NCBI RefSeq assembly: GCF_002156875.1
Contig: NZ_NCSY01000003.1
Location: 186,001 to 250,000, forward strand
Origin: Bacillus sp. EAC
Lineage (GTDB): Bacteria; Bacillota; Bacilli; Bacillales; Bacillaceae_G
Reading direction: 5' to 3'
Length of the DNA: 64,000 nt
The translations under genes and the position numbers were made by a program. Below are positions 50,527 to 57,390 of the stretch, piece by piece. The notes beneath the pieces are model-generated. The model ran no database searches and was not told the origin of the DNA. It saw only the letters and a program-made list of their open reading frames with translations. The first letter of the stretch is position 1. Each line of letters begins with the position of its first letter.

Positions 50527-52361
50527 TCATCCTCTTGGTCATCAGCTACTGGAAGTGTAAAATAGACTGTAGTACCCTTTCCTTCTTCACTTTTAGCCCA
50601 AATATGACCATCATGCGCATAAATCATTTCTTTAGCAATTGCGAGTCCAAGACCAGTACCTCCTACTTGTCTAGAACGTGCTTTATCAACTCGGTAAAAA
50701 CGATCAAATATTTTCGCTAAATTATCTTTTGGAATTCCCATACCCTCGTCAGTTATGCTAATCAGTATCTGATCTCTTGATTCCTTAATTCGATAAGTTA
50801 CTTTTCCACCCTCTGGCGAATATTTTAAAGCATTTGAAATGATATTATCTAAAACCTGAGTAATTTTATCTTCGTCAATAAAAACAAAACGGGTTTTGTT
50901 TAAAAACTCTCGCTTGAAAGATACTGCTTGTGATTTACTCATTTCAAAACGATCGATAATACGATTAAATAGATCTGTAAAGTTAACCCAATCTTTCGTT
51001 AATCGATATTCAGTACTATCAAGTTTAGATAATTGCAATAGGTCATTAACCAATCGAATCATTCGTTCAGTTTCATCTTGAGTTACTTGCAGGAATTTAG
51101 GAGCAATTTCCTTATTCTCCCAAGCTCCATCTGATAAAGCCTCTAAATAACTTCTCATAGTTGTTAATGGTGTTCTTAATTCATGTGATACATTAGCAAC
51201 AAATTCTCTTCGCTCTTGTTCTATTTTTTCTTGCTCTGTTACATCATATAGTACAGCAATTAAACCATTTACTTTGCCTGTATCTTTTTGAATCGTCGAG
51301 AAGCTTGCCCTAATAATCATCGGTCTTTTATTTTCACTGTAATCTAGCATAATCGAATCCGGCTCTTCGTATAAATCATCTAATGTATTAACTTTTTCAA
51401 TTCCTAAAACTTCTAAAATTGATTTATTTAATACTGTTTCACGTGAAACATTCAACATCGCTTCAGCTGGATCATTTAATAAGATAATTTTCCCTCTACG
51501 GTCTGTTGCAATTACTCCATCAGTCATATGCTCTAATACCGATTGTAATTTTCTTCTTTCACCTTCCGTAGATGCCCTGGCCTGTTGTAAGTTTCGAGAT
51601 AAATTATTAAATGAAATTGTTAATTCTCCAATTTCATCTTCACTATATGCCTTTAATCGACGTGAGAAATTCCCCTTCGCCATTTCCTGAGCTTGTCTTC
51701 TTATTTCAGAGATTGGCTTTGTAATTGCCTTTGCAAGTAAAATCCCTAAAATCGAAGTAATAGCTACAGCTATAAGTGTACCCGTTGAAAAAATACGATT
51801 GATTAAAGTCATTCTGTCATACGTACTTTCCATGGATGCACTAGTATAAATAGCCGCGACAGTTCCGTCATCTTCTTCAACAGGAACTACAATTATTCTC
51901 ATCCGATGTCCATTTTTAGGATCAATTAATACTTTTTCAGTTGTTGTTCCGACTAATAATGTTCTTGTTATCAATAAATCAGTTGTTCTTTTACCAACAA
52001 TTGAACGATTATTGGAATCTGATGTAGCAATCACTTCACTATTTTGATTTACGACCCTTACATCAGAGATTCCAATATTTCCAACTTCAGAAACAACATC
52101 TGAAACTATTTTTTGTATATTTGTTTTAATTTCTGGATCATCAAGTGTTTTCTTTTTTTCGTACTCCATCTTGATATTATAGGCCAGCATATTGGCACGA
52201 TCGCTAATTGACGCAGAAAAGTTATTAACTAACTGTTTTTCTAGCTCTCTTGAAAAATACACGCTGATAACCTGCATAGCAACTAATATGAGTAAAATGT
52301 ATACTAGTACGAATTTAAATACGATTGATTGAAATAACCCTACTTTATTATAGGCTGCCAT
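50517..52361 (-). CDS. walK: Essential sensor histidine kinase WalK
   Basis: 614 residues with two membrane helices (about 13-33 and 185-205) around an extracellular PAS-like domain, then HAMP (AQEMAKGNFSRRLKAY) and a cytoplasmic PAS (HMTDGVIATDRRGKIILLN). The phospho-acceptor His is in FVANVSHELRTPLTTMRSYL, and the ATPase boxes are DNIISNALKYSPEGG, DEGMGIPKDN and GTGLGLAIAKEM. It controls cell-wall hydrolase genes during growth through WalR. It overlaps walR by one base and walH by 10 nt. Confidence 0.97.
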   Translation of the reverse strand: MAAYNKVGLFQSIVFKFVLVYILLILVAMQVISVYFSRELEKQLVNNFSASISDRANMLAYNIKMEYEKKKTLDDPEIKTNIQKIVSDVVSEVGNIGISDVRVVNQNSEVIATSDSNNRSIVGKRTTDLLITRTLLVGTTTEKVLIDPKNGHRMRIIVVPVEEDDGTVAAIYTSASMESTYDRMTLINRIFSTGTLIAVAITSILGILLAKAITKPISEIRRQAQEMAKGNFSRRLKAYSEDEIGELTISFNNLSRNLQQARASTEGERRKLQSVLEHMTDGVIATDRRGKIILLNDPAEAMLNVSRETVLNKSILEVLGIEKVNTLDDLYEEPDSIMLDYSENKRPMIIRASFSTIQKDTGKVNGLIAVLYDVTEQEKIEQERREFVANVSHELRTPLTTMRSYLEALSDGAWENKEIAPKFLQVTQDETERMIRLVNDLLQLSKLDSTEYRLTKDWVNFTDLFNRIIDRFEMSKSQAVSFKREFLNKTRFVFIDEDKITQVLDNIISNALKYSPEGGKVTYRIKESRDQILISITDEGMGIPKDNLAKIFDRFYRVDKARSRQVGGTGLGLAIAKEMIYAHDGHIWAKSEEGKGTTVYFTLPVADDQEDEWG

Positions 52362-53065
52362 TAATCTTGCTCCGGATCACGTAAGTAGTAGCCTACTCCT
52401 CTTCTTGTTACGATGAATAGCGGATAGCTTGGATTATCCTCAATTTTTTCACGTAATCTTCTAATTGTTACGTCGACAGTACGTACGTCTCCAAAGTAAT
52501 CATATCCCCAAACAGTTTGAAGTAAATGTTCTCTAGTCATTACTTGTCCTATATGCTTAGCTAAATAGTAAAGTAACTCAAATTCACGATGAGTTAACTC
52601 AATCTTTTCTCCTCGTTTTGTAACGATATATGCATTTGGATTAATTACAAGTGAACCAATTACAACTTCTACTGACTCTTCTTTTTCAGCCGTTGCTCCA
52701 GTTTGATGTCTTCTTAGGTTAGCCTTAACTCTGGCAAGCAACTCTCTCGTACTAAACGGTTTAGTTACATAGTCATCTGCTCCCATTTCAAGTCCTAATA
52801 CTTTATCTAATTCTGAGTCCTTCGCTGTAATCATGATAATAGGCATTTCATGATTTTTTCGAATTTCTCTACAAACTTCTAATCCATCTCGAATTGGAAG
52901 CATAATGTCTAGTAATACTAAGTCTGGAAGAAATTCATCAATTTTTTGTAAAGCTTCTTCCCCATCATACGCACAAACTATTTCAAAACCTTCTTTTTCT
53001 AGATTAAACTTTAATATATCTGCAATTGGCTTTTCATCATCGACTATTAATATTTTCTTATTCAT
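52361..53065 (-). CDS. walR: Essential response regulator WalR
   Basis: 234 residues. Receiver with DDE at 9-11, phospho-acceptor Asp in [13 protein letters not shown] and Lys in [11 protein letters not shown]. OmpR-type winged helix with [20 protein letters not shown] and [10 protein letters not shown]. It directs autolysin and wall-metabolism genes. The start is the ATG at 53065 ([10 protein letters not shown]) with AAGGAGTGCGGGGA upstream; longer in-frame extensions lack support. First gene of walRKHIJ. Confidence 0.97.
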
Positions 53066-53273
53066 TCCCCGCACTCCTTTTCTAGTAAGTTCAGCTGCCT
53101 GTTTGTCTATTCTTATCTTTAGCAATTTAATAATAAATTAGGCAACAAATAAACTAATCATAGTAATTTCGTTTTGTAGGATTGTCTCTATAAATATACA
53201 ATACGACTAATAACTAACGTGTCCTTGTTTTTAACAAAAACAATATGAAATTTTATATCTTTTTTAGAAAAAA

Positions 53274-53302
53274 ACCCCTAGCTTGTTGCTAGAGGTTTAA
53301 TT
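53274..53302 (-). terminator. Intrinsic terminator between the rRNA/tRNA cluster and walR
   Basis: ACCCCTAGC (53274-53282) pairs with GCTAGAGGT (53288-53296), followed on the minus strand by TTTTTTTC. With the hairpin at 53412-53439 it isolates walR from ribosomal transcription. The rest of the 53066-53440 gap shows no gene. Confidence 0.8.
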
Positions 53303-53411
53303 CACTTACTTCTATTTTAAATTAAGTATGTTTTTTTGTAAAATACTTCACTAATTTGATCCTATAAATATCGGATAATCCTATGAATTATGAACCCATA
53401 TAGAAATAAAT

Positions 53412-53439
53412 AAAAACTACTGCATACACAGTAGTTTTT
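53412..53439 (-). terminator. Intrinsic terminator of the tRNA cluster
   Basis: AAAAACTACTG (53412-53422) pairs perfectly with CAGTAGTTTTT (53429-53439), followed on the minus strand by TTTTTATTTA, immediately after the tRNA 3' end. Confidence 0.9.
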
Positions 53440-53443
53440 ATGA

Positions 53444-53516
53444 TGGCTCGGGACGGAATCGAACCGCCGACCCCCTGCTTGTAAGGCAGGTGCTCTCCCA
53501 GCTGAGCTAATCCTCC
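53444..53516 (-). tRNA. Chimeric tRNA: Val(TAC) 5' body with Phe-type 3' end
   Basis: On the minus strand the gene begins GGAGGATTAGCTCAGCTGGG, with anticodon loop CTTACAA (anticodon TAC, Val). From the T-arm on it reads GGCGGTTCGATTCCGTC then CCGAGCC-A. A Val tRNA needs ATCCTCC to pair with GGAGGAT; CCGAGCC instead pairs with GGCTCGG, the 5' end of Bacillus tRNA-Phe. The acceptor stem therefore has only about two pairs and the tRNA should not function. tRNA-Val and tRNA-Phe share GTCGGCGGTTCGA, the likely join. The 3' end reads TCA rather than CCA. Confidence 0.8.
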
Positions 53517-53523
53517 ATCAAAA

Positions 53524-53638
53524 CCAAGCGACGTTCTACTCTCACAGGGGGAAACCCCCAACTACCATCGACGCTGAAGAGCTTAACTGCCGTGTTCGGT
53601 ATGGGAACGGGTGTGACCTCTTCGCTATCATCACTTGA
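53524..53638 (-). rRNA. rrf: 5S ribosomal RNA
   Basis: The minus strand carries the conserved Bacillus 5S blocks ATAGCGAAGAGGTCACACCC, CCATACCGAACACGG, AGTTAAGCTCTTCAGC and GTTTCCCCCTGTGAGAGTAG. Terminal strands CAAGTGATG and CGTCGCTTG pair. Length about 115 nt. It appears complete. Confidence 0.93.
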
Positions 53639-53769
53639 TTTATTTGCTTGGGACATTGATTATTATAACAAAATATCAATCAAAGTCAACATTTTTTTAA
53701 AGATATTTTAAAGTTTTTACACTTTTTTATACCTTCAAAACTAGATAATGTCATTATCAAACTTGTTAG

Positions 53770-53952
53770 TTAAGTCCTCGACCGATTAGTATCAGTCAGC
53801 TCCACGTGTCACCACGCTTCCACCTCTGACCTATCAACCTGATCATCTCTCAGGGGTCTTACTAGCTTAACGCTATGGGAAATCTCATCTTGAGGGGGGC
53901 TTCATGCTTAGATGCTTTCAGCACTTATCCCTTCCACACATAGCTACCCAGC
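53770..53952 (-). rRNA. rrl: 23S ribosomal RNA, 3'-terminal fragment only
   Basis: The minus strand matches the last ~183 nt of 23S rRNA: GAAAGCATCTAAGCATGAAG, AGATGAGATTTCCC, GGTTGATAGGTC, GTGGAAGCGTGGTGACACG and the 3' end GGTCGAGGACTTAAC. Similarity stops after GGGTAGCTATGTGTGG toward the 5' side (plus position 53952), where purA sequence begins. About 2.7 kb of 23S and the whole 16S are missing. The 53639-53769 spacer to 5S is a normal AT-rich internal spacer. Confidence 0.9.
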
Positions 53953-53953
53953 C

Positions 53954-54304
53954 TCTGGTCCTACCGAGAACACAGACAAAGGTATACCTACTAATTGAGA
54001 TACACGCTCTACATAGTGTCTTGCGTTAACTGGCAGTTCATTTAGTGTTTTCACACCCGTTATATCTTCTGTCCAGCCTGGAAGTTCTTCGTATACTGGT
54101 TCACACTCTGAAAGTTGTTTTAAGCTAGCAGGGAACTCAGAGATTGTCTCTCCACGGTATTTGTATGCTACACATATCTTAACTGTTTCTAGGCCTGTTA
54201 AAACGTCAATAGAGTTAAGTGATAAATCAGTGATTCCACTTACGCGACGAGCATGACGTACAACAACACTATCAAACCAACCAACACGTCTTGGTCTTCC
54301 TGTA
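53954..54304 (-). pseudogene. Exact 351-bp duplicate of the 3' part of purA (non-functional fragment)
   Basis: Every base of 53954-54304 is identical to 54577-54927, at a constant offset of 623 bp. It codes for an internal to near-C-terminal part of adenylosuccinate synthetase (from [14 protein letters not shown] to LSVFSVGP), without the catalytic N-terminus and without the last 13 residues. An open frame of 130 codons (53944-54336) can be read through it, beginning with unrelated residues from the tRNA-Lys side and ending in rRNA sequence. It is fused on one side to broken 23S rRNA and on the other to the spacer after tRNA-Lys. Confidence 0.9.
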
Positions 54305-54328
54305 AAACCATAATATAAAAATAAAAGA

Positions 54329-54401
54329 TGAGCCATGAAGGATTCGAACCTTCGACCCTCTGATTAAAAGTCAGATGCTCTACCTACTGAGCTAATGGCT
54401 C
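54329..54401 (-). tRNA. tRNA-Lys (TTT)
   Basis: On the minus strand GAGCCAT (acceptor), GCTC..GAGC D-stem, anticodon loop CTTTTAA (anticodon TTT, Lys), T-loop GGTTCGAATCC and ATGGCTC closing the acceptor stem. 73 nt; CCA is not encoded (ATC follows). First gene of the ribosomal cluster downstream of purA, with its own promoter. Confidence 0.95.
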
Positions 54402-54441
54402 GCATAATAATTTTATGTTGTCAGTTATGACGACAAGATTT

Positions 54442-54471
54442 ATCATAACATATAAACCAAATACATTGCAA
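54442..54471 (-). promoter_or_regulatory. Promoter of the tRNA-Lys/rRNA cluster
   Basis: On the minus strand TTGCAA (54471-54466), 18 bp, TATGAT (54447-54442), about 40 bp before tRNA-Lys and just after the purA terminator. Confidence 0.6.
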
Positions 54472-54497
54472 TAGTAATTTTATATTTAAGAAAAATA

Positions 54498-54526
54498 AAA
54501 GCCCTTAAAGAATTTAAGGGCTTTTT
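54498..54526 (-). terminator. Intrinsic terminator of purA
   Basis: AAAGCCCTTAAA (54498-54509) pairs with TTTAAGGGCTTT (54513-54524), followed on the minus strand by TATTTTT. Confidence 0.9.
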
Positions 54527-54533
54527 AGTCAAA

Positions 54534-55902
<1,369 letters not shown>

Positions 55903-55997
55903 TAAAACTCAGCCTTTTTTTCATTTTCAACTTAAATATGTTCGAATTTGCTATCTAATGTCTTACAATAAATAGTTTACCCTTTCTAAAAAAAATA

Positions 55998-56020
55998 ATC
56001 ACATAGAATCTCTATGTGAT
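55998..56020 (-). terminator. Intrinsic terminator of the gdpP-rplI-dnaB operon
   Basis: ATCACATAGA (55998-56007) pairs perfectly with TCTATGTGAT (56011-56020), followed on the minus strand by TATTTTTTTT. Confidence 0.9.
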
Positions 56021-56025
56021 CATTT

Positions 56026-57390
56026 TTATGCACCCGGTGCATGTTCATCGTTAAACCTACGTTCTAAGTTTACGAATTTATTATATTCTTTTACAAATGC
56101 TAATTGAACTGTTCCTACTGGACCATTCCTTTGTTTTGCTATGATAATCTCAATGATATTTTTATTCTCTGATTCTTTATCATAGTAATCGTCACGATAT
56201 AAGAAAGCAACGATATCAGCATCTTGCTCAATACTTCCTGATTCACGAATATCGGACATCATAGGACGTTTATCTTGTCTTGATTCAACGCTACGTGACA
56301 GCTGAGATAACGCGATTACAGGTACTTTTAATTCCCTTGCTAATGCTTTAAGTGAACGTGAGATTTCAGAAACTTCTTGTTGACGATTTTCTCCTCCACC
56401 TCTACCACTACCTTGAATGAGCTGAAGATAATCGATTAAGATCATTCCTAATCCATGCTCTTGTTTTAGCCTTCTACACTTAGCACGTATATCATTTACG
56501 CGTATACCAGGGGTATCATCTATATAAATACCTGTATTCGCTAAGCTACTAGCTGCCATAGTCAGCTTATTCCAATCTTCTTGCTCTAAATTACCCGTTC
56601 TTAAAGCCTGGGCATTAATATTTCCTTCAGCACAAAGCATACGCATTACTAATTGATCAGAACCCATCTCTAGACTAAAGATAGCTACATTTTCATCAGT
56701 TTTTGTTGCCACATTTTGTGCGATATTTAATGCAAACGCTGTTTTACCTACAGAAGGACGCGCTGCAACAATAATTAAATCATTCGGTTGAAATCCAGCT
56801 GTCATACGATCCAGGTCAGTGAAGCCAGTTGGAATACCAGTTATTTCACCGCGTTGATTAAATAGCATTTCAATTTTACTAAATGTATTAAAAACAACGT
56901 CTTTAATATTCTGGAAACCCGATACATTTGTCCGTTGAGCTACTTGTAAAATACTTTTCTCTGCTTCATTAAGAATGACATCTACTGGAACATCCGATAC
57001 ATAACCTTCGGAAGCAATATTAGTAGCTGTTCGAATCAGCCTTCTTAACGTAGATTTTTCTTCTACAATCTTTGCATAGTAGTCTACATTTGATGCTGTT
57101 GGCACAGAAGCCAATAAATCATTTAAATAAGACACTCCTCCTACTTCCTCTAGTAAGCCTTGATTGGCTAATTCAGAAGTTAGAGTGATGACATCTAGAG
57201 GCTCGTTTCTTGAAGAAATATTCAACATTGCTTCAAATAACTTTTGATGAGCAGCTCGATAAAAGTCATCAGGTAAAAGCCGTTCTGTAGTTGGTATTAA
57301 AGCATCTGAATCTAACAGGACTGCTCCTAATACAGCTTGTTCAGCTTCTATATTCTGCGGTGGAGTACGATCATTTAACAAATCACTCAT
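56026..57390 (-). CDS. dnaB: Replicative DNA helicase DnaB (B. subtilis DnaC)
   Basis: 454 residues. The N-terminal DnaB domain (residues ~10-110, NIEAEQAVLGAVLLD) is followed by a RecA-like C-terminal domain with Walker A VAARPSVGKTAFAL (near 210), Walker B GMILIDYLQLIQGSG and the DnaB-specific SQLSRSVESRQDKRP. A hexameric 5'-3' helicase at the replication fork. CTGGAGGACTAAAA precedes the ATG. It follows rplI by 25 nt. Confidence 0.97.
   Translation of the reverse strand: MSDLLNDRTPPQNIEAEQAVLGAVLLDSDALIPTTERLLPDDFYRAAHQKLFEAMLNISSRNEPLDVITLTSELANQGLLEEVGGVSYLNDLLASVPTASNVDYYAKIVEEKSTLRRLIRTATNIASEGYVSDVPVDVILNEAEKSILQVAQRTNVSGFQNIKDVVFNTFSKIEMLFNQRGEITGIPTGFTDLDRMTAGFQPNDLIIVAARPSVGKTAFALNIAQNVATKTDENVAIFSLEMGSDQLVMRMLCAEGNINAQALRTGNLEQEDWNKLTMAASSLANTGIYIDDTPGIRVNDIRAKCRRLKQEHGLGMILIDYLQLIQGSGRGGGENRQQEVSEISRSLKALARELKVPVIALSQLSRSVESRQDKRPMMSDIRESGSIEQDADIVAFLYRDDYYDKESENKNIIEIIIAKQRNGPVGTVQLAFVKEYNKFVNLERRFNDEHAPGA

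Follow-up and report, generated by a model that had tools for sequence, protein, structure and literature searches.

A probable assembly chimera of rRNA, tRNA and purA sequences between purA and walR in a Gottfriedia draft genome

Known rRNA mis-joins and the ordinary purA-walR locus

Ribosomal RNA operons are repeats that are hard to resolve with short reads and that are collapsed in short-read assemblies, as described in parts of the riboSeed paper (PMC6009695). For Corynebacterium pseudotuberculosis 1002, a passage of another report describes a mis-assembly between rRNA regions in connection with an optical map (PMC4851793). The locus studied here resembles the former case, in which rRNA repeats collapse and give false joins, and differs from the latter, a large inversion between two rRNA regions. 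In contrast to these known mis-joins, the one proposed here passes through repeated tRNA genes and, in addition, includes a short stretch copied exactly from a neighbouring gene. We consider it very probable, judging from sequence comparison, that positions 53459-54307 of the stretch analysed are an assembly chimera formed at collapsed rRNA/tRNA repeats.

The whole stretch of DNA that was analysed, hereafter the window, comprises 64,000 nucleotides and corresponds to C22:186001-250000 of a draft assembly with 28 contigs and 4,330,675 bases in total. Its histidine kinase was 81-93% identical to those of records named Gottfriedia and 90% identical to those of further Bacillus sp. records. Because the identities fall to 64% or less in the next genera, the genome is, on the evidence of this protein, that of a Gottfriedia species. 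The response regulator at 52361-53125 is presumably walR, a name suggested by its neighbours, which, as in Bacillus, include the histidine kinase and other genes.

We compared the locus with 12 genomes of the same genus, 11 of which hold the full interval, while the contig of the twelfth (G003) ends in tRNA-Glu. The order purA, tRNA Lys-Glu-Asp-Phe, walR was observed in all 11 full-interval genomes, and G003 agreed with it as far as tRNA-Glu. No rRNA was detected by Rfam between purA and walR in 10 of these 11 relatives (all except L140) or in the twelfth genome, and the 5S and 23S pieces of the window had no BLAST match in the interval of any of the 12 relatives, L140 included. The window matches the relatives in purA and tRNA-Lys on one side and from the tRNA-Phe T-arm onwards on the other, so that both outer edges (tRNA-Lys, and the tRNA-Phe 3' part with its terminator) are like those of the ordinary Gottfriedia locus. 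On the other hand, the part between them is replaced, approximately from the tRNA-Glu start to the tRNA-Phe T-arm: roughly 220 bp of the ordinary locus have given way to about 850 bp made up of a purA copy and a piece that runs from the 23S end through 5S to the 5' part of tRNA-Val (Table 1). The distance from the tRNA-Glu start to a 13-mer in the tRNA-Phe T-arm is 220-235 nt in all 11 relatives, compared with 838 in the window.

Since the 11 full-interval relatives all carry the tRNA cluster without rRNA, it appears that no rRNA operon was broken at this place and, on the same evidence, that none ever stood there; an ancestral rrn operon at the locus was accordingly rejected. The proposal that an rRNA operon had really been destroyed here by a purA fragment, one of two alternatives in the original prediction, is thus unsupported. 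It is also opposed by the rRNA piece, which is itself misplaced and whose expected sequel could not be located in the assembly.

Table 1. Coordinates of the features between walR and purA in the window
Feature	Position	Strand	Evidence
Authentic tRNA-Phe 3' part from the T-arm on, with the beginning of its terminator; edge of the true locus towards walR	53428..53471	-	44 nt shared without difference with G001 (L131) on its tRNA-Phe/walR side
tRNA-Val(tac) 5' part, misplaced	53459..53516	-	58 nt identical to the tRNA-Val that this assembly has on C7
5S rRNA, complete, misplaced along with the Val part	53523..53638	-	Rfam RF00001, 99.0 bits
23S-5S spacer, rrn-Val operon type	53639..53777	-	inside block 53452-53953 matching G011 and G002 operons
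Truncated 23S rRNA, final 176 nt	53778..53953	-	Rfam RF02541
Exact extra copy of purA 3' part	53954..54304	-	351/351 identical to 54577-54927
AAA, three bases seemingly from neither side	54305..54307	.	read from sequence
Putative Lys-Glu spacer up to first two bases (GG) of tRNA-Glu	54308..54328	-	comparison with L129-L131 and L138
tRNA-Lys(ttt), intact, normal place	54329..54401	-	same place in 12/12 same-genus genomes
Intact purA (429 aa), in which 54577-54927 is the source of the copy	54534..55823	-	Pfam PF00709, 633.1 bits

On the purA side, the stretch that follows tRNA-Lys contains ATTATGG, which is common to L131 only among L129-L131 and L138. As the Lys-Glu spacer varies between relatives, we infer the exact edge to lie near 54308. 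It should be noted that two relatives, G005 and G010, repeat the initial 26 nt of tRNA-Lys exactly between purA and this tRNA (L134:9987-10012 and L139:1428-1453, respectively), at a distance of about 130-140 nt from the gene, possibly the trace of a past event at that tRNA.

The purA copy, the rRNA piece and the hybrid tRNA

The exact 351-bp copy of purA claimed in the original prediction was borne out base for base. The two stretches form a direct repeat in the same orientation with a spacing of 623, and the chance expectation for an exact repeat of 351 bases is about 10^-188. From its coordinates the copy covers about codons 300-416 of the 429 in purA, and the purA genes of the 12 same-genus relatives are 79.4-87.5% identical to the copied stretch. 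A chimeric minus-strand open reading frame of 130 aa (53944-54336) is matched by the Pfam model of adenylosuccinate synthetase (PF00709) with 156.6 bits, and no coding sense was found in the copy beyond its in-frame purA piece. Transposition of purA was rejected, given this lack of extra coding sense and the absence of inverted repeats of at least 20 nt (12-nt seeds) from 51000-57000. The copy adjoins the end of the 23S gene in a blunt join with zero shared bases, and at both purA joins the purA side is not a repeated sequence.

The 23S fragment had been correctly described as abutting the purA copy and as lacking the 16S and most of the 23S, since 23S homology stops at 53953 and neither 16S nor further 23S was found by Rfam scan within the 64-kb window. 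The Rfam match itself spans 53778-54025, but its extension beyond 53953 comes about only because purA sequence is forced to fit the model. On contig C7 of the same assembly the 23S goes on differently after this base; the sequence beyond the cut point is present there (39 nt more, then the contig end) and on C27. The block 53452-53953 was 92.9-94.1% identical to rrn-Val operons of relatives G011 and G002 (L194, L201, L196), where the matching operon is followed by Val-Thr-Lys-Leu(tag)-Gly-Leu(taa)-Arg-Pro-Ala. The junction of 5S with tRNA-Val in the window is the only one found in its own assembly. The Thr-Lys-Leu(tag)-Gly-Leu(taa) array was not found there as an array, and neither was tRNA-Leu(tag), the sole match to which (73%) is the Leu(gag) gene. 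A small contig, C18, starts inside Leu(taa), the tail of this array in the relatives, and continues with Arg-Pro-Ala-Met. For these reasons the rRNA piece is best read, by its sequence matches, as the head of an rrn-Val operon with an unassembled continuation. Neither a second 5S-Val junction nor a Leu(tag) gene that would belong to an intact donor operon could be identified, but the assembly is incomplete there, and such a donor may exist unassembled.

At the walR edge, the Val and Phe parts overlap by a common 13-mer, GTCGGCGGTTCGA, at 53459-53471. The tRNA-Val called by ARAGORN at 53444-53516 is, as its sequence reads, a Val/Phe hybrid, because a Phe-derived 3' part and a Val-derived 5' part meet at this 13-mer. 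With 45.6 bits it had the lowest score among the 59 tRNAs listed for the genome (from 150 of 356 candidates scored). Its predicted fold (71 nt, two bases short at the 3' end) has no acceptor stem, whereas the folds of the tRNA-Val and tRNA-Phe of the same genome have one; by eye, at most two of the seven acceptor pairs could form.

The order and orientation of these pieces, 23S end, 5S and then a tRNA, are normal, and a true rRNA operon might therefore be supposed between purA and walR, collapsed and filled with purA sequence so that only its middle is garbled. However, the walR edge is the tRNA-Phe end of the ordinary cluster with its terminator, joined in mid-tRNA, and the rRNA piece best matches rrn-Val operons that are located elsewhere in the relatives, all 11 of which lack rRNA in this interval. 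We regard such an operon as scarcely credible.

Assembly chimera and recent rearrangement

All the repeated elements involved, namely the tRNA-Glu start, the Val/Phe 13-mer and the 23S end, lie at the junctions and recur elsewhere in the assembly. A 5S search in which all 71 candidates were scored gave nine 5S genes in the whole assembly. For seven of the eight other than that of the window, a contig end lies 2-354 nt away; the eighth is internal, on C27. The rrn operon around it, the middle of which reads N, is probably complete, and the view that all other rrn ends are contig ends was rejected on this account. By comparison, each of two relatives (assemblies of 1 and 3 contigs; 12 candidates scored per genome) has at least 12 complete 23S genes. 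The 23S search of the window's own genome scored the best 12 of 29 candidates, and the 23S ends on C7 and C9 are absent from its list; the corresponding 16S search omitted the 16S starts located at contig ends on C22 and C4, which were found otherwise.

Thus, the other rRNA copies are mostly cut at contig ends and the relatives have an undisturbed locus (11 of 11 full-interval genomes, with the twelfth in agreement). The copy itself is perfect, meets the 23S in a blunt join, keeps the orientation of its source and lies close to the edge, features which further support a chimera. A false join made while assembling a repeated rrn operon, the other alternative of the original prediction, is strongly supported by the relatives, the hybrid tRNA and the cut rRNA copies taken together.

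In the mechanism that we propose, a scaffolding or gap-closing step would have linked the two edges of the locus through repeats, and the rrn-Val operon piece would have been joined to tRNA-Phe through the 13-mer common to Val and Phe. Short inward-facing read pairs may then have been treated as long-insert, outward-facing pairs, and their mates inside the purA contig placed into the gap. Such a mispaired-library origin of the purA copy is suggested because its source is situated about 270-620 bp into the purA region when measured from the edge at 54308, a distance typical of ordinary short-insert read pairs, and both this place and the orientation are those expected. Inward-facing short-insert pairs have been removed by other authors, according to passages in two papers (PMC5199103, PMC7408339). 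A 2500-nt run of N on C27 (85001 to 87500) was rejected as proof of scaffolding, for it starts and stops at exactly those coordinates; we therefore infer the scaffolding and gap filling of this assembly.

A real and very recent event in this one strain would account for the same sequence if pieces of roughly 500 bp (rrn-Val) and 351 bp (purA) had entered the tRNA cluster through end joining or template switching, with the removal of tRNA-Glu, tRNA-Asp and most of tRNA-Phe. The blunt junction, the 3-base insertion and the perfect identity are a possible outcome of very recent end joining; moreover, other copies of the Glu, Asp and Phe tRNA genes exist in the assembly, and the arrangement would thus not be lethal in itself. 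However, three unrelated joins would be required in less than 1 kb, and in each of them one side or both would be a repeated tRNA or 23S sequence. An intact donor operon would also be expected elsewhere, yet the assembly yielded no second 5S-Val junction and no Leu(tag) gene, and all 11 relatives have the ordinary Lys-Glu-Asp-Phe cluster. Such a rearrangement seems to us very unlikely, if less so than a genuine operon at the locus. Under the favoured explanation, an assembly chimera, the real cell most likely carries the ordinary tRNA cluster at this locus, and an intact rrn-Val operon in another place.

Similar artefacts and meaning for draft genomes

We scanned 0.47 of the 4.33 Mb for exact direct repeats of at least 60 nt, including the whole of C22 (271953 nt), about 141 kb of C27 and 58 kb from 12 further contigs. 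No second artefact like the 351-bp copy was found in the 0.47 Mb scanned, and the next longest exact direct repeat in all of C22 was 74 nt. The other repeats of this size comprised six pairs (one on C22 and five on C27) with a spacing of about 125-127 nt or double that, and a 77-nt pair on C4 which corresponds to two tRNA-Gln genes. The short direct repeats with the spacing of about 125-127 nt lie at C22:111143-111343 and at C27:18-288, 64308-64624 and 116112-116313.

Outside the window, near the right end of its contig (C22:271073-271074), gyrA is followed by an open reading frame of 330 aa, which looks HD-domain-like by eye and extends into a cluster of tRNA Arg-Pro-Ala genes with 16S behind it. 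In relative G011, neither this reading frame nor any tRNA lies between gyrA and the first rrn. Judged from this comparison, the junction may be a second false join at a similar repeat, or a true difference.

As biology the arrangement between purA and walR means little, and it is useful as a caution for draft genomes. The chimera would yield a false 130-aa 'adenylosuccinate synthetase' fragment, possibly annotated as a second, truncated purA, along with a spurious hybrid tRNA gene and, next to walR, a spurious rRNA remnant. Contig C22 contains no run of N, so that no scaffold gap is marked there, and it is for this reason the comparison with relatives that exposes the chimera. Three tRNA genes would be hidden by it, and automatic annotation of the draft could inherit these errors.
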